Origin: Arthrobacter sp. PM3 | Lineage (GTDB): Bacteria; Actinomycetota; Actinomycetes; Actinomycetales; Micrococcaceae | Length of the DNA: 64,000 nt | NCBI RefSeq assembly: GCF_003352915.1 | Contig: NZ_CP022314.1 | Location: 3,508,020-3,572,019, forward strand | Reading direction: 5' to 3' | Shown: piece by piece, positions 9,126 through 45,318 of the stretch | Numbering within the stretch: the first letter of the stretch is position 1 | Layout: every line of letters begins with the position of its first letter | Position numbers and translations under genes: made by a program | Notes under the pieces: generated by a model | What the model saw: the letters and a program-made list of their open reading frames with translations, nothing else | What the model was told of the DNA's origin: nothing | Database searches by the model: none

Positions 9126-9641
9126 ATGACGGTACACACCGACCTCAGCCCCCGCCGGCTCCGGACCATCCTGGGCCACTTCGCCACCGGCCTGACCGTG
9201 ATCACGGCGGCTACCAAGGACGGCCCTGCCGGCTTCACATGCCAGTCCTTCTCCTCGCTGTCGCTGGAACCGGCACTGGTGACCTTCAGCCCCTCCCGGA
9301 CCTCCAGCACCTGGCCGCTCCTGCGCGAGGCCGGGCGCTTCACCGTGAACATCCTGCCTGCCGAACATGAGCACCTGGCAACCCGGTTTGCCCGGTCGGG
9401 AACCGACAAATTCGCCGGCGTCAGCCACGCGCCGTCGCCCCTGGGCAACCCGGTGCTGGACCAGGCCCTGGCCTGGGTGGATTGCGAACTCCACCAGGAG
9501 TACGACGGCGGCGACCACACGATCGTGGTCGCCTCCGTCCGCGCCCTGCACGCCCGTGACGAGGCCGAGCCGCTGCTGTTCTTCAAGGGCAGCTACGCCG
9601 GGGTGCGGTCGCGGTCCGGCGCGCTGGAGAGCGTGGCATGA
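9126..9641 (+). CDS. Flavin reductase-like (FMN-binding split barrel) domain protein
   Basis: This 171-residue protein belongs to the flavin-reductase family of two-component monooxygenases (HpaC/HsaB type): LRTILGHFATGLTVITA at the start, GFTCQSFSSLSLEPALVTFS as the flavin-binding core and the closing FFKGSYAG strand. It would reduce FMN or FAD with NAD(P)H and release it to an oxygenase. The nearest such oxygenase is the RibA-monooxygenase fusion about 1.0 kb downstream. The ATG has GAAAGGAC upstream and starts a region preceded by 179 bp without genes. Pairing with the fusion protein is inferred from distance only. Confidence 0.9.
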   Translation: MTVHTDLSPRRLRTILGHFATGLTVITAATKDGPAGFTCQSFSSLSLEPALVTFSPSRTSSTWPLLREAGRFTVNILPAEHEHLATRFARSGTDKFAGVSHAPSPLGNPVLDQALAWVDCELHQEYDGGDHTIVVASVRALHARDEAEPLLFFKGSYAGVRSRSGALESVA

Positions 9642-10136: not shown

Positions 10137-10475
10137 TCATCCGGCGCTGCGGGGCGCGAACATGATCACGGCGACTCCGAACAGGCAGATGACCGAGCCC
10201 GCGATGTCCCAGCGGTCCGGCCGGAAGCCGTCGAAGATCATGCCCCATGCCAGCGAGCCGGCTACGAACACGCCGCCGTACGCGGCGAGGATCCGGCCGA
10301 AATGCGCATCCGGCTGCAGCGTGGCCGCGAAGCCGTAGATGCCCAGCGCCACGACCCCCAGGCCGGCCAGCCACCAGCCTTTGCCCTCACGGACGGACTG
10401 CCAGACGAGCCACGCCCCGCCGATTTCAGCCGCCGCGGCCAGGACGAACAGCAGGATGGTTTTAGCGATAGTCAC
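10137..10475 (-). CDS. ynfA: YnfA/UPF0060-family membrane protein
   Basis: This 112-residue protein has four hydrophobic helices and the family hallmarks: [16 protein letters not shown] in the first helix, [18 protein letters not shown] in the second, [15 protein letters not shown] in the third and [22 protein letters not shown] in the fourth. It is a small SMR-like inner-membrane protein; transport function is likely but the substrate is not established. The start is GTG (VTIAKT), the point where similarity to the family begins; no strong ribosome site is seen. The 115 bases between it and the broken gene upstream hold only a short open stretch from 10027 (MPEFTIS) that resembles no known protein. 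Confidence 0.88.
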
Positions 10476-10584
10476 GCCATCATGATGGCATCCGGCACTG
10501 GGCCGCCCCGACCGGTGCACTGCGCTGGGTCCTGATGCCGTCACATGGGGTCATCGCTTGCGTCATCGGCTCCCCGCTCTTATA

Positions 10585-10600
10585 ACTTTAAGGTTCAAGT
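10585..10600. promoter_or_regulatory. MarR-like inverted repeat upstream of the RibA-monooxygenase fusion
   Basis: ACTTTAAGGTTCAAGT is a 16-bp imperfect palindrome (half-sites ACTTTAAG and, reversed, ACTTGAAC). It overlaps the AT-rich TATAACT box at 10581-10587 and is followed by AAAAT. The same architecture, with a perfect 16-bp repeat also followed by AAAAT, stands before the dioxygenase gene at 12635. MarR-family repressors of aromatic catabolism bind such sites. No MarR gene lies in the window. Confidence 0.6.
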
Positions 10601-10607
10601 AAAATTT

Positions 10608-10696: not shown

Positions 10697-12586
10697 ATGA
10701 CCGTTTCGCTGGAGTCCGTCGAATTGGCGGCCGCCGTCGCCGCGGCTGCCGTGCGCAGCCGGGTTTCCGTGCCGCTGCGCTTCCCGGACGGCTTCACGGC
10801 CGACGCCGAGGTGCTGACGTTCAGCGGCCTCGCCGACGGCAAGGAGCACTTGCTGCTCGCCTTCGGTGACTGGAGGCGGGCGTTGGGCGGTCAATCTGCG
10901 CGGCAGCATTCACCGGGGGAGCGGGAGCCGGCCGGGCCGGCGCCCCTGGTCCGGCTGCACAGCGAGTGCCTGACGGGCGACGTCTTCGGCAGCCAGCGGT
11001 GCGACTGCGGGCCGCAGCTGCGGGAGGCGGTGGAGCGCATCGACGCCGCCGGCGGGTTCCTTCTCTACCTCCGCCAGGAGGGCCGCGGCATCGGCCTGTA
11101 TTCCAAGTTGGACGCCTACGCCCTGCAGGACACCGGCCTGGACACCTACGAGGCCAACCTGGCCCTGGGGCACGGCGAGGACGAGCGGGACTACACGGCC
11201 GCCGCCCAGATGCTCGCCGCCGTCGGCGCCGGCTCGGTGCGGCTGCTCACCAACAACCCGGACAAGGCGGCCCAGTTGACCGCCCTCGGAATCGACGTCG
11301 CCGAGCAGATTGCCACGGGCGTCCATCTGTCCCCGGCCAACCGCCGCTACCTGGCCGCCAAGCGGGACCACACCGCCCACACCCTGGACCTCCCGCCAGC
11401 GGCGGCAGATGCTGCATCCTCGGCCGTCGTCCCGACCCATGAGGAGATGCTCGCCCGGGTTGACGGACTCGTCCCCGGCCTGCGTGCCCGGGCCGAGGAA
11501 ACTGAGCGCCTCCGCCGCCTGCCGGATGCCACCATCGCTGAGTTGCAGGCCGCGGGGGTCTTCCACGTGCTCTCCCCGAAGTCCGTCGGCGGATTCGGTA
11601 TGGGGCTTGAAACCTACGTCGAGGTGGTACGCCGGCTTGCCCGGGGATGTGCCTCCACGGCGTGGAGCGCCGGGCACCTGATCGAGCATGTGTGGATGCT
11701 CGCGCGCTGGCCCGAAGCGGCGCAGAGCGAGGTCTTCGCGAGCGGGCCGGCGCCGCTGGCGGCCGCGACCGGTGCCCCGGCAGGCACGGCCGAGCGCGTG
11801 CCGGGAGGGTATGCGATCTCGGGCCGGTGGACCTTCGCTTCCGGCGTCATGCATTCCGAATGGGCCCTGCTGGCCGCGCAGTACGACGGCGTGCGCCTGC
11901 AGTGCCTGGTCCCGCTGGCCGACGTCGAACTGCTCGACGTGTGGCACACGGCCGGCCTCCGGGGGACGGGAAGCAACGACATCCGGGCAGAGAGGCTCTT
12001 TGTCCCGGAGCGCCGGGCCCTGGACTGGGAGCGCCTGGGTGCGGAGGACAACCCCGGCAGCCTGCTTCATCGTGACCCGCTGATCCACACGCCCATGGGC
12101 TCGCTGCTGAATATGGTGGCCCCGGCCGCCGCCCTCGGCTCGGCCGAATACGCCGTCGAGATCTTCCGGGAAGTGGTGCTCGCCCGCAAGGTCAAGCACA
12201 CGGTGGAGGAACGCCAGGCGGATTCGCCCCTTGCGCAGGCCCGCTACGCGCAGGCCTACGGGCTGGTTGCCACCGCCAGGCTGCACTGGCAGGACGCGGT
12301 CCGGGTGGTTTCGTCCTCCCATGCGCGCAGGAGTTCAACGCTGACAGACGACGAGCGCTCGCGGTACCGGCTCTCGCTCGCCCTGAGTGGCGAGGCGTCG
12401 GCCGAGGCCGTCCGCCTGGTCCTGGCCGGTTCCGGCGGGAGCGTCCACCGGCTCTCGCATCCGCTGCAGCGCATCCAGCGGGATGTCAACGTCCTGCTGA
12501 ACCACGCGGCCCTGACCCGGGACCCCATCCTGGAGCAGGCGGGCCGCGGCCTGCTGGGCCTCGGATTCTCTGTGCCTTCATTCTGA
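10697..12586 (+). CDS. GTP cyclohydrolase II - flavin-dependent monooxygenase fusion
   Basis: This 629-residue protein has two enzyme domains. Residues about 20-225 are a GTP cyclohydrolase II (RibA): zinc cysteines C91, C102 and C104 in HSEC/GSQRCDCG, the LRQEGRGIGL catalytic loop (125-134) and the LLTNNPDK motif (183-190). Residues about 246-629 are an acyl-CoA-dehydrogenase-fold monooxygenase of the HsaA/HpaA group D type (GRWTFASGVMHSEW, LRGTGSNDI, SGGSVHRLSHPLQRIQRD). GTP cyclohydrolase II makes the first riboflavin precursor, and the partner domain consumes reduced flavin to hydroxylate a phenol. All key RibA residues are present, so the domain looks active. The gene lies behind a MarR-like repeat shared with the next gene. 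Confidence 0.9.
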   Translation: MTVSLESVELAAAVAAAAVRSRVSVPLRFPDGFTADAEVLTFSGLADGKEHLLLAFGDWRRALGGQSARQHSPGEREPAGPAPLVRLHSECLTGDVFGSQRCDCGPQLREAVERIDAAGGFLLYLRQEGRGIGLYSKLDAYALQDTGLDTYEANLALGHGEDERDYTAAAQMLAAVGAGSVRLLTNNPDKAAQLTALGIDVAEQIATGVHLSPANRRYLAAKRDHTAHTLDLPPAAADAASSAVVPTHEEMLARVDGLVPGLRARAEETERLRRLPDATIAELQAAGVFHVLSPKSVGGFGMGLETYVEVVRRLARGCASTAWSAGHLIEHVWMLARWPEAAQSEVFASGPAPLAAATGAPAGTAERVPGGYAISGRWTFASGVMHSEWALLAAQYDGVRLQCLVPLADVELLDVWHTAGLRGTGSNDIRAERLFVPERRALDWERLGAEDNPGSLLHRDPLIHTPMGSLLNMVAPAAALGSAEYAVEIFREVVLARKVKHTVEERQADSPLAQARYAQAYGLVATARLHWQDAVRVVSSSHARRSSTLTDDERSRYRLSLALSGEASAEAVRLVLAGSGGSVHRLSHPLQRIQRDVNVLLNHAALTRDPILEQAGRGLLGLGFSVPSF

Positions 12587-12634
12587 CCCGGCGCCGCGGG
12601 GTGCCGGCGAGGGCTGCTGTCCACTGAGATTTAT

Positions 12635-12650
12635 GCTTGAAGCTTCAAGC
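12635..12650. promoter_or_regulatory. Perfect 16-bp MarR-like operator before the extradiol dioxygenase
   Basis: GCTTGAAGCTTCAAGC is a perfect palindrome 22 bases before the dioxygenase ATG. It shares the CTTGAA/TTCAAG half-sites and the trailing AAAAT with the site at 10585-10600. Shared control of the monooxygenase fusion and the ring-opening enzyme by one MarR-type repressor is inferred. Confidence 0.65.
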
Positions 12651-12672
12651 AAAATGCGGTAGGCTTTTAGGT

Positions 12673-13470
12673 ATGACGCAGACAGCTGACCGCCCTCCGG
12701 TACTCTTCCTCAGCCACAGTGCCCCGCCGCTGGCAGACGATTCCACGTGGACCCGCGAACTTAATGCCTGGTCCGGTACCTTCGGGAAGCCGAAGGACAT
12801 CCTCATGGTCTCCGCCCACTGGGAGAACGCCCCGGTCACGCTGAGCGCCACCCGGCGCGACCCAGGCCTGGTCTATGATTTCTGGGGCTTCCCGCAGAAG
12901 TACTACGAAGTGGCGTATGACGCCCCGCAGGCCCCTGAGCTGGCCGCCGAGGTGGAGCGGCTGGTCAACGGCCACGGCCATCACGTGGAACGCGACGAGA
13001 GCCGCGGCCTGGACCACGGCGCTTATGTTCCGCTGAAGGAAATGTATCCGGAAGCGGACGTTCCCGTGGTGCAGATGTCCATGCCGACGCTGGATCCGCA
13101 AGGATTGTTTGAACTTGGCGTGTCCCTCGGGCCCCTGCGCGACCGGGGAACGCTGATCGTGGGATCGGGTTTCACCACCCACAACCTGCGCTGGTTCAAC
13201 CCCGCCGGCGGTCCGGACGTCGCGCCGCCCGCGGCCTCCAGCGAATTCGACCACTGGGCCGAAGAAGCGATGGCGCGCGGCGACGTCGACTCCATCCTGG
13301 ACTTCCTGAACAAGGCGCCGGCCGCCCGCGAAGCCCACCCCCGGAGTGAACACTGGGCCCCGCTCTATGTTGCCCTCGGTGCCGCCTACGGCTCGGGCGA
13401 CATTCAGGCCAGGACGGCGATCGACGGATTCTGGTTCGGACTCTCCAAGCGCTCCTGGACCCTCACGTAG
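12673..13470 (+). CDS. LigB/DODA-type extradiol ring-cleavage dioxygenase
   Basis: This 265-residue protein matches 4,5-DOPA extradiol dioxygenases (YgiD-like): LFLSHSAPP (His ligand near 17), VSAHWEN near 56-62, DHGAYVPLKEMYPEADVPVVQMS near 125-145 and GSGFTTHNLR near 178. These residues supply the Fe(II)/metal ligands and catalytic acid. It opens a catechol ring with molecular oxygen. The frame extends upstream but the ATG at 12673 gives the family N-terminus and lies just after the operator. With the preceding monooxygenase it would form a hydroxylate-then-cleave pair for a phenolic compound. Confidence 0.9.
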   Translation: MTQTADRPPVLFLSHSAPPLADDSTWTRELNAWSGTFGKPKDILMVSAHWENAPVTLSATRRDPGLVYDFWGFPQKYYEVAYDAPQAPELAAEVERLVNGHGHHVERDESRGLDHGAYVPLKEMYPEADVPVVQMSMPTLDPQGLFELGVSLGPLRDRGTLIVGSGFTTHNLRWFNPAGGPDVAPPAASSEFDHWAEEAMARGDVDSILDFLNKAPAAREAHPRSEHWAPLYVALGAAYGSGDIQARTAIDGFWFGLSKRSWTLT

Positions 13471-16722: not shown

Positions 16723-17316
16723 ATGATCAGCCTGCAGGACATCGACAACATCGTCCTCAACGGAGGCATCGTGGTGGACGCGGCCGGGGAGAAAATCGGC
16801 TCCGTGGAGCAGATTTTCACGAGCGGCGACTCAGGCGATCCGGCCTTTGTCACCGTGCGGACCGGGCTGTTCGGGATGTCCGAGACCTTCGCGCCGCTGT
16901 CCGGGGCCAGCCTCGAGGACTCCGTCATCAAGGTTGCGTTCGACAAGGACACGATCAGGAACGGACCGCGCATCGACAGCGACCGCGGCGCGATCACGGA
17001 GGCCCAGGAACAGGAACTCTACCGCTACTACGGGCTGCCGGCCGGCACCGGTGCCAGCCCCGCCGACACCACCGCCGCTGACGCGGTGACCACGGCGCCG
17101 CACCCGCCGCCGCCAGGTCCGCCGCCTCCGCCGCCGCATGGCGGGCCGGGCCACCCGCCGCCTCCGCCGCCGCATGGCGGGCCGGGCCACCCCCCGCCGC
17201 CTCCGCCGCCGCATGGCGGGCCGGGCCACCCCCCGCCGCCTCCGCCGCCGCATGGCGGGCCGGGCCACCCCCCGCCGCCTCCGCCTCATCTGCACCGACA
17301 CGTGCCCCCGCGCTGA
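16723..17316 (+). CDS. PRC-barrel protein with proline-rich tandem-repeat tail
   Basis: This 197-residue protein has a PRC-barrel domain at residues 1-85 (NIVLNGGIVVDAAGEKIGSVEQIFTS, then a second strand set ending IKVAFDKDTI), a short helix with QEQELYRYYGL, and a C-terminal tail of four HGGPGHPPPPPP units. PRC barrels bind other proteins or surfaces, and the actinobacterial form with ELYRYYG is common and of unknown role. GGAGGGG lies 9 bases before the ATG, which fixes the start. The tail has no charged residues until the final HRHVPPR and is likely extended and sticky. Confidence 0.85.
   Translation: MISLQDIDNIVLNGGIVVDAAGEKIGSVEQIFTSGDSGDPAFVTVRTGLFGMSETFAPLSGASLEDSVIKVAFDKDTIRNGPRIDSDRGAITEAQEQELYRYYGLPAGTGASPADTTAADAVTTAPHPPPPGPPPPPPHGGPGHPPPPPPHGGPGHPPPPPPPHGGPGHPPPPPPPHGGPGHPPPPPPHLHRHVPPR
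17128..17290 (+). repeat. Coding tandem repeat (36/39/39-bp units)
   Basis: Four near-identical units encode H-G-G-P-G-H-P(6-7). The core CATGGCGGGCCGGGCCACC begins at 17137, 17173, 17212 and 17251, so spacings are 36, 39 and 39 bp. The extra codon adds one proline. Near identity at synonymous positions indicates recent expansion by slippage or unequal recombination. Confidence 0.9.
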
Positions 17317-33731: not shown

Positions 33732-34577
33732 TCAGTCCTCCGCCAGGGTACGGATGTCATCGGCCGGGGCTGTCCGGAAGCCCAGGTTCCGGGACACGGC
33801 CCTGGCCGTGGCCATCACGGCAGGGGCCAGGACATTGGGCGGGGTGGTCCCGTCCGGCACCACGATCGACAACGCGGCCGCCACAGTGCCCTGGGCATCA
33901 AAAACCGGGGCGGCGACCGAAACCGTCAGCGAGGGCGCGGAGCGGCGGATCATGGCGACACCGGTCCGGTGGACGTCGGAGAGGGTGCGCCGCAACTGGC
34001 CTTCGGGCATGGCCGCCACACCGGGCTCGGCTTCCGCCGGTTCCTTCAGTATCTTCTCCTGGAACGCGGCGCCGGCACCGGCCAGCAGCACCAGGCCGAC
34101 GGCGGTGGACCGCAACGGGAGCCGCCCGCCCACCCGGTAGGCCACCTCCGTGGCCTGCTTGGACGACAGCCGCTCGATCAGGACCGCCTCTTCCTTGTCC
34201 CGCACCGCCAGCAGGACGTGATGCCGGGTGACCTCGAACAGGTCCTCCAGGTAGGGCAGGGCGATGTCGCGGATGCCGTGTCCCCGCGGGCAGAGGGACG
34301 CGATCTCCCACAGCCGCACGCCCACGACGTACCGGCCGTCATCGAGCCGCTCCAGGGCGCCCCAGGCAACCAGCCGGGCGATGAGCCGCAGCGCCGTCGG
34401 GGCCGGCATGCCGGCGTAACGGGCCATTTCGGACAGCGTCAAGGCCCGGCGGCGGTCCGTGAAGACGGCGAGCAGGCTCAGGGCCCGGTCGATCACCGGC
34501 TCGCCCTGTTTGGGGCGCTTGCCGCGCGCGGCGGCTGGTGTTTCGGGACCGGAAAGCGTGTCCTCGGGTGCCGTCAT
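33732..34577 (-). CDS. IclR-family transcriptional regulator
   Basis: This 281-residue protein has an N-terminal winged helix (about 28-90; VIDRALSLLAVFTDRRRALTLSEMARYAG and TALRLIARLVAWG) and an IclR effector-binding GAF-like domain (about 105-270; RHHVLLAVRDKEEAVLIERL, GRLPLRSTAVGLVLLAG, SVAAPVFDAQGTVAAALSI). It is divergent from the ABC importer operon, and a 15-bp operator-like sequence lies between them and recurs twice in the island. It is the likely master regulator of flavonoid-glycoside catabolism here, probably responding to an aromatic intermediate. Confidence 0.92.
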   Translation of the reverse strand: MTAPEDTLSGPETPAAARGKRPKQGEPVIDRALSLLAVFTDRRRALTLSEMARYAGMPAPTALRLIARLVAWGALERLDDGRYVVGVRLWEIASLCPRGHGIRDIALPYLEDLFEVTRHHVLLAVRDKEEAVLIERLSSKQATEVAYRVGGRLPLRSTAVGLVLLAGAGAAFQEKILKEPAEAEPGVAAMPEGQLRRTLSDVHRTGVAMIRRSAPSLTVSVAAPVFDAQGTVAAALSIVVPDGTTPPNVLAPAVMATARAVSRNLGFRTAPADDIRTLAED

Positions 34578-34625
34578 TCGTGTTGTGTCCTTACTTTGCC
34601 GCCAGTGACCTTCACCACAATAGTG

Positions 34626-34640
34626 TTCCAACCATTGAAA
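34626..34640. promoter_or_regulatory. IclR operator candidate, site 1
   Basis: TTCCAACCATTGAAA lies between the IclR gene and the divergent importer operon, 121 bases before the binding-protein ATG and 49 from the regulator ATG. It is an imperfect palindrome (TTCCAA.../...TTGAAA). Near-identical copies stand at 45213-45227 and 51348-51362, giving the consensus TTCCAAYSRWTGAAA. Confidence 0.7.
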
Positions 34641-34760
34641 TTCTCGTGTGACGGGACTGCGTCTGCCCACGACTCTTGATGAAGCCGGTCCCCGCTCTAC
34701 CGGACCCCAGCCAGATGTCGAAAATCCCGTTGTTTTAGAGAGAATGCGAAGGCGCACCAC

Positions 34761-36317
34761 ATGAAAGTTCTGAACCCCACTGCCCGACGGAGCGCGGCCG
34801 TTTTGGCCGGTGTCCTGCTGCTTAGCTCCGTGACTGCCTGCGGCGGTTCCGGCCAGGCGGCCTCCGCCGCGGACAAGAGCACCCTCACCATCGGCGTCGA
34901 GAGTGACAGCGCGTCCTTTGGTTTCGACCCCTTGCGGGTCTCGGACGCTCAGCGGCAGTTCTTCGAGGGCCTCTACGAGAACCTTATGACCCTCCGGCCG
35001 GATGGTTCGGTGGGGCCGGGCCTGGCCACCGGGTTCAGCTACAACGCCGACAACACCGTCCTGACGCTGACACTCAAGCAAGGCGTCACCTTCACGGACG
35101 GCTCCACCCTGGACGCGGCACTCGTCAAGGCCAACCTGGACCGCCGCACCGATCCTGCCCTCTCGGCCTACTCGGCGATCGCCAAGGGCGGCGCCCAGGA
35201 AGTGACGTCCGTGGACGTGGTCAGCCCCACCCAGGTGTCCCTGACCTTCGCCACGGCGCAGCCCGGCTTCGAGAAAAACCTGGCCTCCACACTGGGCATG
35301 ATCGTCGGTAAGGCCGGCGCAGCCGACACGGCGAGCCTCGCCGCCACGCCGGACGGGTCCGGTCCGTACACCCTGGACACGGGGAGCACCGTGAAGGGCA
35401 ACAAGTACGTCCTGCAAAAGAATGACAAGAGCACGGACGCCGCGAAGTACCCGTACAGCAAGATCGTCTTCAGCGTCATCCAGGACCCGCAGGCCCGCGC
35501 CAACGCCCTCGTCTCCGGCCAGGTGGACGTCGCCCAGCTGACGTCACCGACCGTTGACTTCGCCAAATCCAAGGGCGCGGGCGTCTCCCAGATCGGCGGC
35601 ACCATCCAGACCATGATCTCCTTCGACAAGACCGGCAAGACCGCGCCCGCGTTCGCCAGCGAAAAAGTCCGCCAGGCCATCCAGTACGCCATCAACCGCC
35701 AGGCCCTGGTCGACGCCCTGCACAAGGGCGACATCCCGGCCTGGAACGCTCTTCCCAAGGATTCGGCCGGCTTCACCCAAGAACTGAACACCAGGTTCGC
35801 CTACGATCCCGCCAAGGCCAAGAGCCTGCTGGCCGAGGCGGGCTACGCTAACGGCTTCGAATTCACCATCGTCGCGAGCGCCACCACGCAGACCGACCTC
35901 CAGGCCGTCCAGAAGGATCTCGCCGCCGTCGGCATCACCATGAAGGTCAAGATGGCCACCTCCACCGACGAGGCGTTCGCCGCCGTCGCCACCACCCCGC
36001 TGGGCTACGCGCCGCTGGGCTGGGACAACCCGGTGGGACTGATGTACGGTGCCATCCTCAATGGCTTCACCAACGTCCAAAAGGCCACGGACGACCAGCT
36101 CAGTGCCGCCACCGGCGAGGTCGCCGCCGCCAAGGACGATGCCGCCCGGAAAGCCGCGCTCACCAAGCTCAACACCCGGCTCGTCGAATCCGGCTGGATG
36201 ATCCCGCTCTTCGAATCCCTCACCAGCCAGGGCTACAACACCAAGAAGGTCAAGCCGGTGGAGTTCGCCGGCAGCAACGTGTACCCGCTGCTCTCGTCCT
36301 ACGCCCCGGCCAACTGA
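34761..36317 (+). CDS. ABC-transporter substrate-binding lipoprotein (family 5)
   Basis: This 518-residue protein has a signal peptide with lipobox (SVTACG; cysteine about residue 27) and the SBP_bac_5 fold: FFEGLYENLMTLRPDGSVGPGLATG near 73-95, the TLKQGVTFTDGS stretch near 110-125 and VRQAIQYAINRQALVDALHKGD near 305-325. It captures substrate on the cell surface for the permeases encoded next. Family 5 proteins bind peptides, nickel or oligosaccharides and glycosides; linkage with an alpha-L-rhamnosidase suggests a rhamnosylated aromatic. It opens the importer operon. Confidence 0.93.
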   Translation: MKVLNPTARRSAAVLAGVLLLSSVTACGGSGQAASAADKSTLTIGVESDSASFGFDPLRVSDAQRQFFEGLYENLMTLRPDGSVGPGLATGFSYNADNTVLTLTLKQGVTFTDGSTLDAALVKANLDRRTDPALSAYSAIAKGGAQEVTSVDVVSPTQVSLTFATAQPGFEKNLASTLGMIVGKAGAADTASLAATPDGSGPYTLDTGSTVKGNKYVLQKNDKSTDAAKYPYSKIVFSVIQDPQARANALVSGQVDVAQLTSPTVDFAKSKGAGVSQIGGTIQTMISFDKTGKTAPAFASEKVRQAIQYAINRQALVDALHKGDIPAWNALPKDSAGFTQELNTRFAYDPAKAKSLLAEAGYANGFEFTIVASATTQTDLQAVQKDLAAVGITMKVKMATSTDEAFAAVATTPLGYAPLGWDNPVGLMYGAILNGFTNVQKATDDQLSAATGEVAAAKDDAARKAALTKLNTRLVESGWMIPLFESLTSQGYNTKKVKPVEFAGSNVYPLLSSYAPAN

Positions 36318-36327
36318 CCCCCACCCT

Positions 36328-36366
36328 GCCGGCCGGCCTTCACCTTCCAGCCGAAGGCCGGCCGGC
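36328..36366 (+). other. Long intercistronic hairpin after the binding-protein gene
   Basis: GCCGGCCGGCCTTC at 36328-36341 pairs perfectly over 14 bp with its complement at 36353-36366, enclosing an 11-nt loop. It lies between the substrate-binding gene and the first permease gene, with no T-run. Such stems often block 3' exonucleases so that the binding-protein mRNA outlasts the rest of the operon. Confidence 0.7.
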
Positions 36367-36386
36367 CCTGACCGATGGAGGTCATC

Positions 36387-37328
36387 ATGGCGATTTACGT
36401 CGCAAAGCGCCTGCTGATGGCGCTGGCCACCGTGCTGCTGGTTGCGCTCCTGGCGTTCCTGTTGGTGCACGCCATGCCCGGCAGCCCGGGAGCCGTGTCC
36501 CTCGGCGCCGGCGCCACCCAGCAAGCCATTGACGAGGTCAACGGCCGGCTCGGCTGGTCCGATCCGCTTCCCGTCCAGTTCTTCCGCTGGCTCGGCAGCG
36601 CGGCGCAGGGAGACTTCGGGGTGTCGCTGATCGACGGCCGGTCCGTCAGCGCCGACCTCGCCAACAGGCTGCCCGTGACGGCGGCCCTGGCAGCCGGGGC
36701 CACGCTCCTGAGCGCCGTCCTCGGCATCGGTCTTGGCGTGACGGCGGCCGTGCGCGGCGGGCTGGTCGACCGGGCCGTTGGTGCCCTGTGCGGCCTCGCC
36801 GTGGCGCTGCCCGCCTTCTGGATCGGCATCATCTTCGTGTACCTCTTCGCCGTCCAGTCCTCGGTGTTTCCGGCCACCGGCTACGTCCCCTTCGAGGTCT
36901 CGCCCCGGGACTGGGCCCTGTCCCTGGCCCTGCCGGTGATTACCCTGGCCGTGGGCGGGGCGGCTTTCATCGCACGCCAGACCCGCGCGTCCATGCTCGA
37001 GGCGCTGCAGCAGGAACACATCCGGACCCTGCGGGCAACGGCCACCCCGACATGGAAGATCCTGTACGTGCACGCCCTGCGCTACGCCAGCCTGCCGATC
37101 GTGGCCGGCATTGCCCTGCAGTTCATCGGACTGTTCGGCGGCTCCGTGATCGCGGAGCAGTTGTTCGCCATGCCGGGCCTCGGCCAGGCAGTCCAGAGCT
37201 CCGTCAGCACCCACGATGCCCCGTCCGTGCAGGGCGTGGTGGTGGTCGCCACCGTGGTGGTGGTGGCCGTGAACCTGGTGCTGGAGCTCGCCACCAAATT
37301 TCTCGACCCGAAGTTGCGTGCCTCATGA
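36387..37328 (+). CDS. ABC transporter permease, DppB type
   Basis: This 313-residue protein has six transmembrane helices and the binding-protein-dependent permease loop (RQTRASMLEALQQEHIRTLRATA, EAA motif about 200-220). It begins IYVAKRLLMALATVLLVALLAF, as DppB/OppB do, and carries the DFGVSL element in the first external loop. The ATG at 36387 was chosen because GGAGGT lies 6 bases upstream (an ATG at 36375 is in the ribosome site itself). Its stop overlaps the next start (ATGA). It forms the channel with the permease half of the next protein. Confidence 0.93.
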   Translation: MAIYVAKRLLMALATVLLVALLAFLLVHAMPGSPGAVSLGAGATQQAIDEVNGRLGWSDPLPVQFFRWLGSAAQGDFGVSLIDGRSVSADLANRLPVTAALAAGATLLSAVLGIGLGVTAAVRGGLVDRAVGALCGLAVALPAFWIGIIFVYLFAVQSSVFPATGYVPFEVSPRDWALSLALPVITLAVGGAAFIARQTRASMLEALQQEHIRTLRATATPTWKILYVHALRYASLPIVAGIALQFIGLFGGSVIAEQLFAMPGLGQAVQSSVSTHDAPSVQGVVVVATVVVVAVNLVLELATKFLDPKLRAS

Positions 37329-39484
37329 TCCCTCCCGCCGCCCCCGCCTCAACGGCGCCCCCCACGATCCCTGCCGCCGCGGAGGGCCCCGGCGAGGGCC
37401 CCGGCGCGGATGCCGGCACCGCCGCCGGCCCCGGCCCGGGCCGCTCCGGGCGCGGTCCCAAGACCCGTTCCGCCCGGTTCTCCGCCCGCCGCCTGGCCGG
37501 CTCGCCCGGCGCCCTGGCCGGCGTGCTCTGGCTGGCGGCCCTGGTGGCTGCCTCGCTCACCGCCCGCTGGTGGCTGCCCTACAAGACCGAAGACCAGGAT
37601 TTCACCGCCATCCTGTCCGGGCCCACGGCCGCCCACTGGCTTGGTACCGACGAACTCGGGCGGGACCTGCTCAGCCGCATCTTCGCCGCGGCCGCCGGCA
37701 CCTTGGGGACATCGCTCATCACGGTGATGGTCGGCGTCGGGCTCGGCACCGCCCTGGCTCTGCTGGCTGCCGCCGGACCACGGACCGAAGGGCCGATCAG
37801 CCGCGTCACAGAGATCATGATGTCCCTGCCCGGCACCGTCATCATCCTGGCCGTCATCGGCGCCGTCGGAACCAACATTCCCGTCATCATGGCAATCCTG
37901 GGCGTGCTGATCTCTGCCGGCATCTACCGCGTGATGCTGGGCCAGGCGGCGTCGCTGCAGTCGCAGCTCTACGTCGACGCCGCCAAGGTGGACGGCGTGG
38001 GTCCCCTCGCCATCAGCCTTCGCCACGTCCTGCCCGGCCTGGCCACCACGATCGTGGTGCAGTCCGCCCTGATCTTCGCGGTGGGCATGCTGATCCAGGC
38101 CGGCCTGGCCTTCATCGGGTTCGGCCCACCCATCCCGGAACCCAGCTGGGGCGGCATGATCCAGAGCGCATCCCAGCACATCTACGACGCCCCGTGGCTC
38201 ATGGTTCCCACCGGCGCGGTCCTGGCCCTGACGGTCCTGGCGGCCAACGCGATCGGCAATGCCCTGGGCACGTCGCCGAACGCGGCCGCCTCCCACCTTC
38301 CCCCGGCTGCCGAGCGCCGACGCCGCGCCGCGCGCTCCGCATCCTCATCCACCGTCCCGGCGGCGGCAGCGGAAGCCCCGGCCACTCCGGGCCACCTCAG
38401 CGTCCGCGGCCTGTCGGTGGGGGTCGACGGCGGCACTCCGCTGGTCACGGACGTTTCCTTCGACGTCGCGCAGGGCACCGTGCTCGGGCTCGTGGGCGAA
38501 TCGGGCTGCGGCAAGACCATGACGGCACTGTCCCTGCCCGGTCTGCTGCCCTCCGGCGTCTCGGTCACGGGAGGCCGGATCCTGTGGGACGGCCGCGACC
38601 TCGCGGGTGCCGCCGAAAACGCCATGGCCGGCATCCGGGGCCGGGACATTGCGCTGATCTCCCAGGAACCCATGCGGGCCTTGGACCCGATGTTCACGAT
38701 CGGCTACCAGCTCATCTCCACCGTGCGGCGCTTGCGGAACACCGGAAAAGCCGAAGCCCGGTCCGAGGCGCTGAGCCTGCTCGAGAAGGTGGGCATCGTG
38801 GACGCCACGCGCATCCTCGCCACCTACCCCCACCAGATATCCGGCGGCATGGCCCAGCGCGTGGCCATCGCCCTGGCGCTGGCCGGGCGTCCCAGGTTGC
38901 TCGTCGCGGACGAGCCCACCACGGCACTGGATGTGACAGTGCAGGCCGAAATCCTGTCGCTGCTGCGGGCCCTGGTCCGGGACACCGGCATGTCCGTGGT
39001 GATGGTGACCCACGACCTCGGCGTGGTGGCGGACATCTGTGACAGCGTCGCCGTCATGTATGCAGGACAGGTCGTGGAAAGCGGCCGGACCGCCAGCATC
39101 CTGGACAACCCGCGGCACCCCTATACCCTGGCGCTTCTGGCCGCTGACCCGCACGCCGCGACCGCCGGCGGCATGCCCGGCCGCCTGGCCACCATCAGCG
39201 GCCAGGTTCCCCAGCCCAAGGACTGGCCGGGCGGCTGCCGGTTCGCGGCACGCTGCCAGTTCGCCGGCTCCGCCTGCGTGGAACCGGTCCCGCTGGTGCC
39301 CTCCGGCTCTGAAAACGGCGAGGTGCGCTGCGTCAAAGCGGACGAACTGGCCGTCGAAGGCCTCGCCTGGGTGGCCACCGACGTGCCCGCGCACCAGGCA
39401 TCCGGGCCGCGTGAGGTCGCCAGGACAGCTGAGAAGGACACGCCATGTGCGACGGACAAAACGATCGAGAGGGACAGGGCATGA
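37325..39484 (+). CDS. Fused ABC permease (DppC) and ATPase (DppD)
   Basis: This 719-residue protein joins two normally separate subunits. Residues about 50-315 form a DppC permease after a Pro/Gly-rich tail (1-50): [15 protein letters not shown], the EAA loop around 215-235 and [19 protein letters not shown] 45-residue Ala-rich linker leads to a DppD ATPase (about 360-700): Walker A GESGCGKT (392-399), Q-loop SQEPMRAL, signature ISGGMAQR (about 502), Walker [10 protein letters not shown]-loop THD, and the C-terminal oligopeptide domain with [11 protein letters not shown]...C cysteines. Both parts look functional. Start and stop overlap the neighbours. Confidence 0.93.
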
Positions 39485-40488
39485 GCATCGACACTTCGCC
39501 AGGGCAGGACGGAACGGCGCAGGTTCCCGGCCGGCCGCTTCTGGAAGTGGCGGACCTGGTGGTCCGGTACGGCAGGGGCCGGAAGGCCGCCGCGGCGCCG
39601 CCGGCCGTGGACGGTGTGAGCTTCGGCATCCTGCCCGGCGAAACCGTGGGCCTGGTGGGGGAGTCCGGCTCCGGCAAGTCGACCATCGGGAAGGCCATTC
39701 TTGGCCTGGAGAAGTGCAGCGCGGGTTCGGTCCGGTACAACGGAACCGACATCACCCACGCCGGCGCGGCCCGGCGCCGGGAACTGGGCGGGGAATTGCG
39801 CGCCGTGTTCCAGGATCCGAACTCGTCCCTGAACCCCCGGCAGAGCATCGGCGCGTCCCTGGCCGAACCGCTGCGGATCCGCGGCGTGGCCGCCGGGGAC
39901 GCCCGGCGGCGTGCCGCGGACATGCTGGCAAGGGTGGGCCTGCCCCGCGAGGCCGTTGACCGCCATCCGGCCCAGTTTTCCGGCGGGCAGCGGCAACGGA
40001 TCGCGGTTGCCCGGGCCCTGATCTGCGAACCGAAGCTCGTGGTCTGCGATGAAGCGGTCAGTGCACTGGACCTCTCCACCCAGGCCCAGGTGCTAAACCT
40101 TCTGGCCGACCTCCGCGACGAACGGGGGCTGAGCTACCTGTTCATCGCCCACGACATCTCCGTGGTCCGGTTCCTCGCCCAGCGGGTGGTGGTCCTGTAC
40201 CGGGGACAGGTCATGGAATCCGGGCCTGCGGCGGCGGTCACGGAGTCGCCCAAACACCCGTTCACCCAGGCGCTCGTGGCGGCCTCGCCCGTGCCCCGCC
40301 CGGCCGAGCAGGCCGCACGCCGGCACCAACGCGAAGCACTGGGCGTCCGGACCGCGGCCGCCGCGGCCGCCGCCCCCGCTGGCTGCCCCTTCAGCAACAG
40401 GTGCCCCCTGGCCACGGACCTGTGCCGCACCCAACGCCCGGCGCTGCGGACGGCGGGCATGTCCGACGTCGCCTGCCATTACGCGTAA
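39481..40488 (+). CDS. ABC transporter ATP-binding protein, DppF type
   Basis: This 335-residue protein is the second ATPase of the importer: Walker A GESGSGKS (about 61-68), Q-loop FQDPNSSLNPRQSIG, signature FSGGQRQR (about 167), Walker B LVVCDEAVSALD and a C-terminal cysteine-containing oligopeptide/dipeptide domain (GCPFSNRCPLATDLC...). CDEAVSALD is the usual DppF variant. The ATG overlaps the previous stop (ATGA), with an in-frame ATG-like GTG extension upstream rejected. It pairs with the ATPase half of the fusion protein to power uptake. Confidence 0.93.
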   Translation: MSIDTSPGQDGTAQVPGRPLLEVADLVVRYGRGRKAAAAPPAVDGVSFGILPGETVGLVGESGSGKSTIGKAILGLEKCSAGSVRYNGTDITHAGAARRRELGGELRAVFQDPNSSLNPRQSIGASLAEPLRIRGVAAGDARRRAADMLARVGLPREAVDRHPAQFSGGQRQRIAVARALICEPKLVVCDEAVSALDLSTQAQVLNLLADLRDERGLSYLFIAHDISVVRFLAQRVVVLYRGQVMESGPAAAVTESPKHPFTQALVAASPVPRPAEQAARRHQREALGVRTAAAAAAAPAGCPFSNRCPLATDLCRTQRPALRTAGMSDVACHYA

Positions 40489-40564
40489 GCAAGAACTGAA
40501 CCGCCATGACCCTCACACCCCGGTCCGCCACGATGATTGCCCCCGGGCACGACAGGAGACAGCA

Positions 40565-43252
40565 ATGAACAGGCCCACGCGCCTGAAGGCCGAACACCTC
40601 AGCGAGGCCTTCGGCATCACCATCACCCGTCCGCGGCTCAGCTGGACCCAGCCGGAGGGCACTCTGCGGCAGACCGCGTACCGGATCACCGCCAGCAACG
40701 GCTGGGACAGCGGCCGGGTGGAGTCGGCTGGACACTCCCTGGTGCCCTACGGCGGCCCGGCGCTGGATTCACGGGACCGTTTCGACTGGAAAGTCCGCAC
40801 CTGGGACTTGGGCCCGGACGGCAGCGAACGCGCCTCTGCCTGGTCCGTACCGATGCCGGTTGAACTCGGACTATTGCACCCCGCCGACTGGACCGCCCGG
40901 TGGATCGGCCCCCGGGAAACCGCCCTCCCCGCAGCCGGCGCCCGCCCCGGCCACGCCTTGAGCACCACGTTCGACCTCGCGGTGCTGCCGCACTCCGCAA
41001 GGGCGTACGCCACCGCCCACGGGATCTACGAACTCTTCATCAACGGGAACCGGGCCGGGGACCAGGAGCTCACGCCCGGCTCCACGAGCTACCACACCAC
41101 CCTCCAGGTCCAGGCGTTCGACGTCGGGCCCCTGCTCCGCCCCGGCCGCAACACCGTCACCGCGGTGCTCACCGATGGCTGGTACCGCGGCACGTTCGGG
41201 TACACCCGCGACGCCGACAGGTACGGCACCGCGACGGCGCTGCTGGCGCAGATCGAGCTCACCACCCCGGAAGGACGGACGGTGATCGGAACCGACGGCA
41301 CCTGGCTGGTGACCGCGACGGAGATCGCCAGCGCCGACCTCATGGCCGGCCAGCACGTCGACTTCCGCTCCCGCCGGCTCCCCGGCAGCGGGGACCGCGA
41401 GCGCGCAGTGCTCCGGGCCGGAAGCTTCACGACCCTGACGGGTCCGGTCGCGCCGCCCACCAGGGTTGTCGCGGACATCACGCCCGTGTCCGTCACGCGC
41501 CTGGCCACCGGGCACCAGGTGGTGGACCTGGGGCAGAACATCAATGGCTGGGTGCGCCTGACCCGGCTGGGCGCCCCGGGCCGGCCGGTGACCCTCGTCT
41601 ACGGGGAGGCGCTGGACGGCCGGGGCGACGTGACGCAGGAGAACCTGCGGCCGCACGATTTCCGCAATCCGGGCCGGTTCCTGTCCGCCGGGCAGGTCGA
41701 CTCGGTGGTGTCCTCCGGTGCGCCGGGGGAAGTTTTCGAGCCCCGCCACACGACGCACGGCTTCCGCTACGTTTCGGTCAGGGGCCTGTCAGAGCCCCTG
41801 GGAACGGGGGACATCACGGGCCGTATGGTCCAGACCGACCTCGAACGCGCCGGCACATTCAGCTGCAGCGACCCCCGGCTCAACAAACTCCACGAGATCG
41901 TCGACTGGAGTTTCCGCGGCAATGCCTGCGAGGTCCCCACGGACTGCCCGCAACGGGAAAAGGCCGGATGGACCGGCGACTGGCAGGTGTTCGTCCCCAC
42001 CGCGGCCTACCTCTACGACGTTGCAGGATTCACCCGGAAATGGCTCAACGATGTCCGGGCGGACCAATGGGACAACGGCGTGATCGTCAACATTTCGCCG
42101 TCGCCGGGCCCTGAAGCCACCGCCGCCGACCACATGGCGTTTGTCAACGGCTCCGCCGGCTGGGGAGACGCGATCGTCCTGGTCCCGTGGGAAATCTATC
42201 GGGCCACGGGAGACACGGACATCCTGGAACAGAACTGGGAGGCCATGAACCGCTGGCTCGGGTTCATCCGCAGCACGGCCACTGACGGCCGGCACCCGGC
42301 CCGGATCGCCGCCCGCCCGACGCCGGAACCGTACGAACAGTATCTCTGGGACACCGGCTTCCACTGGGGTGAATGGCTGGAACCCGACGGGCCGGAACCA
42401 GACCTGTTCGCCGCCCGGACCGCGGACCACGGCATCGTGGCCACCGCCTTCTACCGCCACTCCACCCGCATCATGGCCGGAATCGCCGCCGTCCTGGGCC
42501 GCGACACCGAGGCCCGTGCCCTCGACGAACTCTCCGCCAAAGTCCGCGACGCCTGGGAACGGGAATACCTCACCGCCGCCGGGCAGGTCTCCGACGCCAG
42601 CCAGGCCAACTGCGTGCGGGCGCTCGCCTTCGACCTCGTCCCTGAGCGGCACCGGCCGGCGGTCGCCGCGCAACTGGTGTCCCTCATCCGCGGCGCCGGC
42701 ACCCACCTGGGCACCGGCTTCCTCGCCACCGGAGACCTGCTGCCCGTCCTGGCCGACAACGGCCACCTCGACCTCGCCTATGAACTGCTCATGCAGGACA
42801 CCGAACCGTCCTGGCTGGTGATGGTGGACCGCGGAGCCACCACCATGTGGGAAGCCTGGGACGGCATCGGCCGGGACGGAACCGTGCGGCAATCGCTGAA
42901 CCACTACAGCAAAGGAGCCGTGGTGTCCTTCCTGCACCGCTACACCGCCGGACTCCGGCAGGCGCCGGGCAGTGCAGCATATGAGGAGATCATCATCGAA
43001 CCGCGCCCGGGCGCCGGCCTCACCTCCGCCAGCACCTCGCACCGCGGCCCCCGGGGCCTGATCGAAACCGGCTGGCGGATCGACGACGGCGCGCTCAGCG
43101 TGCATGTTCTCGTGCCGCCGGGCACCACGGCGGAAGTCCGGCTTCCCGGCCGGCCGGCCGCCGTCGTCGGCCCCGGAACGCACACCTTCTCAGTTCCGTA
43201 TGGCCCGGCTGTCCCGGCATCCCTGTCCCACCTCATCAGGAGCGCACCATGA
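40565..43252 (+). CDS. Alpha-L-rhamnosidase, GH78
   Basis: This 895-residue enzyme has the GH78 domain order: N-terminal beta-sandwich (about 1-120; PRLSWTQPEG), Bac_rhamnosid_N (about 120-310; ARAYATAHGIYELFINGNR), a concanavalin-like module, the (alpha/alpha)6 catalytic barrel (about 430-760; DCPQREKAGWTGDWQVF and WGDAIVLVPWEIY contain the catalytic acids) and a C-terminal beta-sandwich. It removes terminal alpha-L-rhamnose from glycosides such as quercitrin or rutin. It has no signal peptide, so it works on imported glycoside. AGGAGACAGCA precedes the ATG. Its stop overlaps the next start. Confidence 0.95.
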   Translation: MNRPTRLKAEHLSEAFGITITRPRLSWTQPEGTLRQTAYRITASNGWDSGRVESAGHSLVPYGGPALDSRDRFDWKVRTWDLGPDGSERASAWSVPMPVELGLLHPADWTARWIGPRETALPAAGARPGHALSTTFDLAVLPHSARAYATAHGIYELFINGNRAGDQELTPGSTSYHTTLQVQAFDVGPLLRPGRNTVTAVLTDGWYRGTFGYTRDADRYGTATALLAQIELTTPEGRTVIGTDGTWLVTATEIASADLMAGQHVDFRSRRLPGSGDRERAVLRAGSFTTLTGPVAPPTRVVADITPVSVTRLATGHQVVDLGQNINGWVRLTRLGAPGRPVTLVYGEALDGRGDVTQENLRPHDFRNPGRFLSAGQVDSVVSSGAPGEVFEPRHTTHGFRYVSVRGLSEPLGTGDITGRMVQTDLERAGTFSCSDPRLNKLHEIVDWSFRGNACEVPTDCPQREKAGWTGDWQVFVPTAAYLYDVAGFTRKWLNDVRADQWDNGVIVNISPSPGPEATAADHMAFVNGSAGWGDAIVLVPWEIYRATGDTDILEQNWEAMNRWLGFIRSTATDGRHPARIAARPTPEPYEQYLWDTGFHWGEWLEPDGPEPDLFAARTADHGIVATAFYRHSTRIMAGIAAVLGRDTEARALDELSAKVRDAWEREYLTAAGQVSDASQANCVRALAFDLVPERHRPAVAAQLVSLIRGAGTHLGTGFLATGDLLPVLADNGHLDLAYELLMQDTEPSWLVMVDRGATTMWEAWDGIGRDGTVRQSLNHYSKGAVVSFLHRYTAGLRQAPGSAAYEEIIIEPRPGAGLTSASTSHRGPRGLIETGWRIDDGALSVHVLVPPGTTAEVRLPGRPAAVVGPGTHTFSVPYGPAVPASLSHLIRSAP

Positions 43253-44265
43253 CCTTTATCGAATCCGCAGCGACTGACAGCGAGGCACGCCCCGACGCCG
43301 CAGGAAAGGACGGGCCGTCTTCTGGCCCAGCGTTCCCCGGGTTCCCTGCCTTTGATGGCCCGGGCATGGCCGTGCCGGTATCCGAGGGCTCCGCGGTACA
43401 CCGCGAAGTCAGGTACGCCCGGACCGTCGGGTTCCGGCCGCTGACCATGGACATCTGGCTTCCGCGGACGGCCGGGCGTCCGCTGCTGCGGCCCGTTCCG
43501 CTGGTGCTGTGGATCCACGGCGGCGCTTTCCAGCTGGGGGACCGCCGTGAGCTGCCGCCCACTTTCCCTGTGAATTCCGTCTTTTCCCGGCTTAACGCGG
43601 CGGGGATCGCCTGCGCCACCGTCGACTACCGGCTGGCCCTCGAAGCCGCCTTCCCGGCCCAACTGCATGACCTGAAAGCGGCGGTCCGCTACCTCCGCGC
43701 GCACGCACAGGAGCTGCGGATCGATCCGAAACGGTTTGGCGCCTGGGGCGAATCCGCCGGCGGCCACCTGGCTGCTCTGCTGGGCCTAACCGGCAGGCGG
43801 GAAGACCTCGAGGGAGAACTCGGCGCGCAGGGACACTCCAGTGCCGTCAGCGCCGTCGTGGACTTCTACGGTGTGTCCTCGCTGCCCCTCATGCCCCCGA
43901 TGCAGCTCCCGGCCCGCCTCCTCACCGGACCCATGGTGGCCGCCGTTCCGGCAGGCATGAGCATGGAACCGGGGCCCATGCTCATTGGCGGTTCCAGGGA
44001 CCCGGACCGACTGGCGGCCGCGAGTCCGCTCGGCCACGTCAGCGCCGGGGCGCCGCCGTTCCTGCTGATCCACGGCGACACCGACGCCCTCGTGCCCCTG
44101 TCCCAGAGCGAGCTCCTCGCGCAGGCCCTCAGCGCCGCCGGAGTCCGCAACGACGTCGTCGTCATCGAGGGCGCCGACCACTGCTTCTTCGGCGCAGAAG
44201 ACCGGATAGACAGCATCCTGGACACAGCCATCACTTTCCTCGCCACAGAGCTGGGCCGGCCATGA
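43249..44265 (+). CDS. Alpha/beta hydrolase, BD-FAE/carboxylesterase type (first of three)
   Basis: This 338-residue protein has the HGG oxyanion motif at 90-92, the nucleophile elbow GESAGG (S169) and a late HGDTDALVPL (Asp) and GADHCFF (His), completing the triad. After a 45-residue polar N-terminus it resembles BD-FAE/acetyl-esterase proteins that deacylate sugars or cleave phenolic esters. Its start overlaps the GH78 stop and its stop overlaps the next hydrolase, so it is expressed with them. It may remove acyl groups from acylated rhamnosides or cleave the depside made by quercetinase; sequence cannot decide. Confidence 0.9.
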   Translation: MTFIESAATDSEARPDAAGKDGPSSGPAFPGFPAFDGPGMAVPVSEGSAVHREVRYARTVGFRPLTMDIWLPRTAGRPLLRPVPLVLWIHGGAFQLGDRRELPPTFPVNSVFSRLNAAGIACATVDYRLALEAAFPAQLHDLKAAVRYLRAHAQELRIDPKRFGAWGESAGGHLAALLGLTGRREDLEGELGAQGHSSAVSAVVDFYGVSSLPLMPPMQLPARLLTGPMVAAVPAGMSMEPGPMLIGGSRDPDRLAAASPLGHVSAGAPPFLLIHGDTDALVPLSQSELLAQALSAAGVRNDVVVIEGADHCFFGAEDRIDSILDTAITFLATELGRP

Positions 44266-45221
44266 CCCTGGACCCGGACCTGGCCGGCACCCTCCATCAC
44301 CTGGCGGGGGCGGGTTCGCTGGCGGAGCTCCTGTCCCGACCCGGCGGCGCGGACCGGCTGGAGGCGTTCAGCGGCGGCCCCGTGCCCTACCAGGCTCCGG
44401 ACGTCCGTGTCCGCGACGCCGAGGCGCCCGGCCCGAACGGGCCCGTCCCGGTCACGATCTACGGTGCCGGCAGCCATGGCGGTCCTGCGCTCGTCTGGAT
44501 GCACGGCGGGGGATTCGCCGGCGGCGGCCCGGAGATGCGCGAAGCGGACCAGCTGGCCCGGGAAGTCGCGGCCCGCAGCGGCGGCGTGGTGGTGTCCGTG
44601 GACTACCGGCTGGCCCGCGACGGTGTGCACTTCCCCGTCCCGCACGAGGACGTCCTGGCCGCCTGGCTCTGGACCGTGGAGCACGCCGCGGAGCTGGGCG
44701 CCCGCCCCGACCGCGTGTGCCTGGGCGGCGCCAGCGCGGGCGGCAACCTGGCCGTCGGGGCCGCGCTCTTCCTCAAAGACGCCGGCCTGCCCATGCCGGC
44801 CAAACTGCTGCTCGCGTACCCGTTCCTGCACGCCGACCTGTCGGTGTCCGGCGCCGCCACGGCGCGGGACATCCTCGACGCGCTCCCGCGGCCCCTGCGG
44901 TTCACCCCCGATGACTGCCGCGCCCTCGTGGAGAACTACATCGGCGGCCCCGTCGCCGTGGCGCCCTCCTATGCGATGCCCGGCAAAGCGGACCCTTCCG
45001 GGCTGCCGCCCGCGGCGATCATCGCTTGCGAATACGACGACCTGCGCCCCTCGGCAGAGGCGTTCGCGGCAGGACTCCGACGTGCCGGAACTGACGTCGA
45101 CTTTCGCCTCGAAGCCGGTGCCGTCCACGGCTACCTCAACCATTCCGCGGGGCTTAGGATCGTGCAGGACGGCCTCGCCTTCCTGGCCCGGGCCCTGGTG
45201 GAGACAAAGCCGTTCCAATGA
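44262..45221 (+). CDS. Alpha/beta hydrolase, HSL-type esterase (second of three)
   Basis: This 319-residue protein belongs to the hormone-sensitive-lipase branch: HGGGF at 81-85, GASAGGN with S158, EYDDLRPSAEAF (Asp) near 265 and AVHGYLNH (His) near 290. The N-terminal 50 residues form the cap region. Family members hydrolyse short acyl or aryl esters. It is the last gene of the importer-rhamnosidase operon. The stop codon lies inside the second operator-like site (45213-45227), which marks the start of a new transcription unit. Candidate depside esterase. Confidence 0.9.
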   Translation: MTLDPDLAGTLHHLAGAGSLAELLSRPGGADRLEAFSGGPVPYQAPDVRVRDAEAPGPNGPVPVTIYGAGSHGGPALVWMHGGGFAGGGPEMREADQLAREVAARSGGVVVSVDYRLARDGVHFPVPHEDVLAAWLWTVEHAAELGARPDRVCLGGASAGGNLAVGAALFLKDAGLPMPAKLLLAYPFLHADLSVSGAATARDILDALPRPLRFTPDDCRALVENYIGGPVAVAPSYAMPGKADPSGLPPAAIIACEYDDLRPSAEAFAAGLRRAGTDVDFRLEAGAVHGYLNHSAGLRIVQDGLAFLARALVETKPFQ

Positions 45222-45227
45222 TTGAAA
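45213..45227. promoter_or_regulatory. IclR operator candidate, site 2
   Basis: TTCCAATGATTGAAA is almost a perfect palindrome (TTCCAAT/ATTGAAA around G) and overlaps the stop of the HSL-type esterase gene. It matches site 1 at 13 of 15 positions, with GTTCCAA...ATTGAAAT conserved beyond the core. It stands 92 bases before the next gene, where an internal promoter would be needed. Confidence 0.7.
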
Positions 45228-45318
45228 TCCCCGCTGTCCGGAGACGGCGGCATCAGCGACCCTTGATTCAGACGCCGGAACACCACCACACGCCGGCCAG
45301 CAGCGGATGGAGCCGACG

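Follow-up and report, generated by a model that had tools for sequence, protein, structure and literature searches.

The gene at 10697..12586 (+ strand) of the window, as we call the whole stretch of 64,000 nucleotides of Arthrobacter sp. PM3 DNA analysed here, raises the question of why a GTP cyclohydrolase II (RibA) should be joined to a flavin-dependent oxygenase. As the initial annotation had it, the gene is a single uninterrupted ORF of 629 codons. It encodes a GTP cyclohydrolase II domain (10793..11311, +; residues 33-205; Pfam GTP_cyclohydro2, PF00925, above the cut-off with E 1.8e-53), a variable linker (11390..11440, +; residues 232-248) and an HsaA/HPAH-like oxygenase domain (11441..12562, +; residues 249-622) with the Pfam domains Acyl-CoA_dh_N (PF02771; 263-345, 2.6e-8) and Acyl-CoA_dh_2 (PF08028; 476-606, 9.7e-17). 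The NCBIfam RibA model NF001591 matched residues 27-231 with 245.9 bits, above its cut-off of 148, and TIGR00505 scored 180 on the RibA half, below its cut-off of 205.85. In an alignment with 2bz0, Cys91, Cys102, Cys104, Tyr141, Asp162 and Arg164 correspond to E. coli C54, C65, C67, Y105, D126 and R128; we take the cysteines to be zinc ligands and the Tyr/Asp/Arg set to belong to the active site. Ser382 and His603 of the oxygenase half align with S143 and H368 of HsaA, where the pair is catalytic. The two acyl-CoA-dehydrogenase-type domains and the Ser/His pair uphold the assignment to the group D hydroxylases; phenol, the substrate first proposed, is a fair guess from the sequence. On residues 252-622 the HsaA equivalog NF045629 reached 234.1 bits against a curated cut-off of 450, and by this score the oxygenase half is HsaA-like, not HsaA. 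The nearest solved structures by sequence were HsaA (2rfq, 3afe), XiaF (5lvu) and C2-HPAH (2jbr) for the oxygenase half, and RibBA (4i14) and E. coli GCH II (2bz0) for the RibA half. Structure prediction of the fusion gave a mean pLDDT of 69.3 and a pTM of 0.56.

A search for the architecture of RibA plus acyl-CoA dehydrogenase, an idea already present in the initial annotation, found all three domains, RibA and the acyl-CoA-dehydrogenase pair, in every one of the best 120 of 7735 protein matches (from 7999 scored candidates). These 120 relatives are 596-656 aa long and, the window's own protein excepted, 71-80% identical to the query; where organism names are given they are Arthrobacter or Pseudarthrobacter. 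The source names, where given, read GTP cyclohydrolase only, so that the oxygenase half is concealed in annotation. Among these best 120 of 7735 matches, Cys91, Cys102, Cys104, Tyr141, Asp162 and His603 were invariant (120/120), and Arg164 and Ser382 were retained in 119. In the same sequences the share of positions conserved at the 95% level was 12% for the linker, 60% for RibA and 51% for the oxygenase portion. The pN/pS values of ten pairs ranged from 0.08 to 0.31 for the RibA half and from 0.10 to 0.24 for the oxygenase half; both halves are under purifying selection. Residue conservation and selection together rule out a decayed RibA half. FAPy-type cyclohydrolases have Met at the position of Tyr105, where all 120 of these best-matching relatives have Tyr, and this type is not supported. 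The RibA half is apparently intact, as first annotated, and turnover of GTP is predicted for it.

A full-length match to the fusion was found in 50 of 198 genus genomes, including one (G030) with two in-frame stops. In four others (G015, G149, G179, G082) the genome search returned two pieces and the fetched loci showed a single frame. A sequencing error at the junction, raised at the outset as a possible objection, is ruled out by the 120 three-domain relatives and these 50 genomes; with residue conservation and purifying selection added, the fusion is no artefact. Outside the genus, no full-length fusion was detected in samples of 245 family, 297 order and 396 phylum genomes with E limits between 1e-60 and 1e-75, which a distant fusion could escape. 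None of 529 matching plasmid records reached 80% query coverage.

The physical link between flavin supply and flavin use, which the initial annotation regarded as unusual, is dispensable. In seven fetched genus loci (L086, L089-L094) both halves are intact adjacent separate genes on the same strand, overlapping by ATGA in L089 and by 17 bp in L093 and lying 16-33 bp apart in the others when the likeliest start is taken. An eighth locus (L095) is split-like with the oxygenase called in two pieces, and L100 may be a frameshifted fusion, as its frames overlap and its nearest kin are fused. Three loci (L102, L103, L105) have RibA and the MarR-type gene that recurs beside the fusions but gave no match to the oxygenase, L098 shows the converse, an unbroken oxygenase gene with no RibA match, and L096, L097 and L101 are damaged; the RibA-only and oxygenase-only copies indicate that the pairing can be lost. 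In trees restricted to long enough pieces (38 oxygenase rows, 58 RibA rows), split copies were scattered among fused ones. A single clade of split copies was rejected with L100 included (p-AU 7.5e-5) but not without it (p-AU 0.098, with three changes counted on that tree), and a single clade of fused copies was rejected on the RibA tree with L100 included. Because the rejection of a split clade hung on L100, we conclude that both forms exist and draw no conclusion of repeated fusion or fission.

The genome of the strain contains two PF00925 genes and one PF00926 gene. The other ribA sits in a normal operon of the order ribD-ribE-ribB-ribA-ribH (names from translations), preceded by an FMN riboswitch (RF00050, 96.9 bits); a normal rib operon has been reported for an Arthrobacter strain in the available text of PMC9608346. 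No Rfam match at gathering score, and hence no FMN riboswitch, was found in the 4.9-kb fusion locus. A normal ribA elsewhere had been named beforehand as a point against the fusion; it exists, and redundancy does not follow from it, since the riboswitch precedes the normal copy alone. With the strain's other copy the fused RibA shares 54% identity; with a RibA subfamily that occurs as stand-alone genes throughout Actinomycetota, for which we use the label RibA-2, identity is 60-81%.

The main new result is regulatory: one operator is common to the fused and split copies and to dioxygenase-type genes. A MarR-type operator, TAACTTTAAGGTTCAAGTAA, is predicted before the fusion gene at 10583..10602 (29.4 bits), and a second, ATGCTTGAAGCTTCAAGCAA, before the LigB gene at 12633..12652, the latter site being within the matrix training set. 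Both fit TTnAAnnnTCAA, the published consensus for the MarR protein SCO3205, which was present upstream of 37/37 fused or split copies and of 35/847 other genes. The 14-bp core of the LigB-promoter site, CTTGAAGCTTCAAG, has one exact copy in the 4.35 Mb genome, 23 bp ahead of the LigB start. With at most two mismatches it occurs at five places, compared with eight for a control pattern, a number not above chance. These five include the fusion-promoter site, 97 bp before the fusion start, and, as the sole one-mismatch place, a site 12 bp ahead of a 305-aa VOC gene, measured from its longest ORF; the other two, with two mismatches, fall inside called genes (L173, L174).

The operator was further scanned with at most one mismatch in 26 hand-chosen genus genomes, of which 15 carry the fusion, 5 the split form and 6 no strong fusion match. 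This analysis revealed 39 sites, spread over 25 of the 26 genomes; the control pattern gave 20. Of these, 36 precede a VOC-type dioxygenase-like gene (24), a LigB gene (5), ribA or the fusion (6) or a MarR gene (1); the remaining three lie before a DoxX gene, at a divergent pair (another MarR and an F420-reductase-like gene) and inside a called gene. A broader pattern gave 47 sites and 18 control sites in 14 genomes. A matrix was trained on 29 VOC and LigB sites only, so that the ribA promoters were unseen in training, and it gave each of the 37 genus copies, whether fused or split and counting L095 and L100, at least 17.8 bits. Scoring covered the 56 loci with a called RibA gene (L096-L098, L101 and L112 have none): at least 10 bits were reached at 45/56 RibA loci compared with 36/829 other genes, and the top-scoring non-RibA genes were largely LigB and MarR genes or genes of the same intergenic region. 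Within the 64 kb window, scores above 8 bits occurred only at the fusion and LigB promoters, with none near the flavin reductase gene. The VOC label is based on a Pfam superfamily together with weak matches in NCBIfam, and a PDB search with the VOC protein returned short matches to designed repeat proteins and nothing else. In three of these 14 genomes, including G000, a similar palindrome abuts the start of a gene for a luciferase-like monooxygenase (L220, L222, L223), a weak hint that this gene may be a further regulon member.

Neighbourhoods were counted in 41 oxygenase-bearing genus loci, namely the window and 40 fetched ones. They vary widely, the recurrent partner being a divergent MarR-type gene, which lies directly upstream in 12/41. 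The best structure match of this MarR was 3ZPL, which is SCO3205 of Streptomyces coelicolor (E 1.4e-35). In the available text of PMC3737563, SCO3205 binds the consensus ahead of a class III extradiol dioxygenase gene, its Trp16 and His119 are tied to a salicylate-type pocket, and the authors could ascribe no function to this structurally characterised protein. Both residues are retained in the MarR of L063, as read from an alignment. In the window strain no MarR gene adjoins the fusion. The best homologue, 47% identical and likewise most similar to 3zpl among solved structures, is at G000:C1:1210822, and our guess is that it is the best candidate regulator of the fusion there.

The same module recurs in other actinobacterial families. 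The arrangements observed were RibA>LigB>MarR (L142, L144), MarR|LigB>RibA>RibD (L147, L148), RibA>VOC (L157, L158), RibA>nitroreductase>RibD_C>deaminase (L138) and RibA>MarR (L132, L133), with L148, L144 and the L138 deaminase assigned by likeness only. The consensus stands before RibA-2 in 6/27 loci (L132-L158; background 2/444 other genes) and before the divergent MarR gene in three more (L146-L148). In a set of loci with organism names, 48 of 80 were analysed (L230-L277; L278-L309 are less alike and mostly of other groups), and 47 had a readable RibA gene (all except L242). An SCO3205-type MarR gene was within two genes of RibA-2 in 23/47, a LigB gene in 4/47 and a nitroreductase gene in 2/47, and no MarR or LigB match was found among 251 genes farther away. 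Two of the 47 are Arthrobacter fusions; other examples are Actinacidiphila glaucinigra (L233), Saccharothrix yanglingensis (L239) and Nocardia miyunensis (L267). RibD_C lay within two genes of RibA-2 in 21/47, and many RibA-2 genes in RibD_C/PTPS/glycosyltransferase clusters were searched for the operator with none found, which disfavours a single common role of RibA-2.

Several RibA-2 genes were seen in other settings. In L149-L152, L154 and L156, and likewise in L237, L238, L240, L243, L244, L247, L259 and L270, a recurrent cluster without the operator holds RibD_C reductase, glycosyltransferase-like and PTPS-like genes (the last where the flank reaches, checked in L152 alone). Such clusters possibly make a pterin- or lumazine-type product. 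In another genus of the family (L109, L111, L113, L115) a short deaminase gene, checked against PF00383 in L109, comes after RibA-2, and a similar palindrome, TTGATTGAAGATTCAAGCAT, lies upstream. A stand-alone RibA-2 lies on a conjugative plasmid of Paenarthrobacter ureafaciens (L007:8932-9648), a strain from a nicotine environment, and a further RibA-2 in a Streptomyces plasmid biosynthetic cluster annotated with lantibiotic dehydratase, AMP-binding and condensation-domain genes (L008:6932-7597).

The reading we favour, and hold to be rather probable, is that the fusion belongs to a regulon for aromatic compounds of catechol or quinone type and would provide a MarR-controlled, riboswitch-independent flavin supply for aromatic or quinone oxidation. 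Its strongest competitor, which we nevertheless consider unlikely, is that RibA would supply a substrate and not a cofactor: its product (diaminopyrimidinone ribotide) or a RibD derivative would be acted on by the oxygenase or LigB, or would trap reactive carbonyls. The operon that RibA-2 shares with LigB and a complete RibD gene in L147 and L148, the RibD_C and deaminase genes beside RibA-2 in L138 and L141, and the PTPS/RibD_C/glycosyltransferase clusters that may make pterin-like products all speak for it. Yet riboflavin synthesis simply begins with RibA and RibD, and flavin supply thus accounts for these operons too; moreover, the oxygenase resembles phenol-type hydroxylases and retains Ser382 and His603, and an oxygenase-only copy exists (L098).

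Poorer still are the prospects of the proposal that the RibA half has lost its enzymatic importance and is now just a dimerising or solubilising tag. A second ribA in the genome and the intact oxygenase without RibA in L098 speak for a tag, but the near-invariant zinc and active-site residues (119-120 of 120 relatives), the RibA-half pN/pS in ten pairs (0.08-0.31) and the RibA-only copies with the same MarR (L102, L103, L105) argue against one.

The window also contains the two neighbours named in the initial annotation. The HsaB-like flavin reductase gene (9126..9641, +; PF01613; 192.7 bits against a cut-off of 230) starts at 9126 according to the gene caller and at 9096 as the longest ORF. 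The ring-opening dioxygenase directly downstream is indeed present as a LigB-type gene (12673..13470, +, gene-caller start; PF02900; 4,5-DOPA extradiol dioxygenase-like) with its own promoter region; the LigB family occurs in 8/41 genus loci and adjoins the fusion or oxygenase in 7/41. The least probable account, a local catabolic operon of reductase, fusion and LigB as the initial annotation implies, has the gene order and the HsaB-like score in its favour, but a reverse-strand gene (10137-10475) separates the reductase from the fusion, LigB has its own operator and adjoins in few loci, and the reductase family occurs in just 2/41 loci. The reductase stands as a neighbour and is not supported as a dedicated partner, given that count and the missing operator nearby. 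Elsewhere in the window, 16723-17316 encodes a short protein whose long repeat tail, of the PPPPHGGPGHP type, is rich in proline, glycine and histidine, and 33732-50111, by eye, holds IclR-type regulator, peptide ABC transport, glycosidase, fumarylacetoacetate-hydrolase-like and FAD-monooxygenase-like genes.

In the favoured account of on-demand flavin supply, an SCO3205-type MarR would repress the fusion, the LigB dioxygenase, the VOC-type gene and probably others through the operators described above, and an aromatic effector would release it. The RibA half would then turn GTP into the committed riboflavin precursor outside FMN-riboswitch control, and flavin availability would rise. Given reduced flavin by some reductase, the oxygenase half would hydroxylate an aromatic substrate whose ring the co-regulated dioxygenases could open. 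The fusion would be one arrangement that couples both activities, and adjacent separate genes would serve equally. The earlier suggestion that induction of the pathway could also raise flavin synthesis is backed by the operator common to dioxygenase-type genes, and suggests that extra flavin may be made on demand when soil Arthrobacter cells meet aromatic compounds. Conservation, selection, the shared operator, MarR neighbours, the lone riboswitch at the rib operon and recurrence in other families support this account. It is weakened by the lack of a MarR gene beside the fusion in the window strain, the HsaA score far below the cut-off, the many related RibA genes in other clusters without the operator, the weakly based VOC label and the existence of RibA-only and oxygenase-only copies.

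A wider view, which we advance tentatively as a possibility, is a widespread and unrecognised actinobacterial programme. In it, SCO3205-type MarR repressors would switch on a riboswitch-free second GTP cyclohydrolase II. Extradiol dioxygenases, nitroreductases or, in Arthrobacter, the fused flavin oxygenase would be switched on along with it, to provide flavin or an intermediate of its pathway on demand, perhaps as a reagent, for aromatic or quinone detoxification. The system described here suggests a concrete role for SCO3205, left without one in PMC3737563, and a natural route by which flavin could be increased when needed, bypassing the FMN riboswitch. The RibA-oxygenase chain could serve biocatalysis where flavin is limiting.

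Compared with known RibA enzymes (E. coli 2bz0; RibBA 4i14), the fusion shares the domain, the three Cys ligands and the Tyr/Asp/Arg positions, and differs in its C-terminal oxygenase, its MarR-type operator and the missing FMN riboswitch. With HsaA, the oxygenase of 3-HSA hydroxylase (2rfq, 3afe), XiaF and C2-HPAH it shares the fold family by sequence and the aligned Ser/His pair; unlike HsaA, it reaches about half of the HsaA model cut-off and is joined to RibA. The S. coelicolor SCO3205 regulon has the operator consensus, the MarR homologue and a LigB-type target in common with our loci, whereas ribA, VOC and oxygenase targets are not named in the available text of PMC3737563. In the MhqR quinone regulon of Bacillus and Staphylococcus a MarR repressor likewise stands over ring-cleavage dioxygenases and nitroreductases, but the available text of PMC6798810 mentions no ribA or oxygenase fusion, and the fusion operator differs in sequence from the MhqR operator TATCTCGAA-aTCGAaATA when the two are compared. 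E. coli ribA belongs to the SoxRS regulon and is induced by a stress regulator (Koh 1996, as cited in the available text of PMC6092379); the likeness is a stress regulator that raises ribA, and the differences are the regulator and the absence of a fusion. PMC13028884, available in part, provided background only. The initial annotation knew of no characterised enzyme of this architecture, and in the open-access literature we too found no title or abstract describing a RibA-oxygenase fusion or a link between MarR and GTP cyclohydrolase II. Styrene monooxygenase StyA2B is self-sufficient, with a reductase-oxygenase make-up. It resembles the fusion in combining flavin provision and use in one chain (PMC10251532, available text), but there the partner activity reduces flavin, whereas in the fusion the partner would start flavin synthesis.
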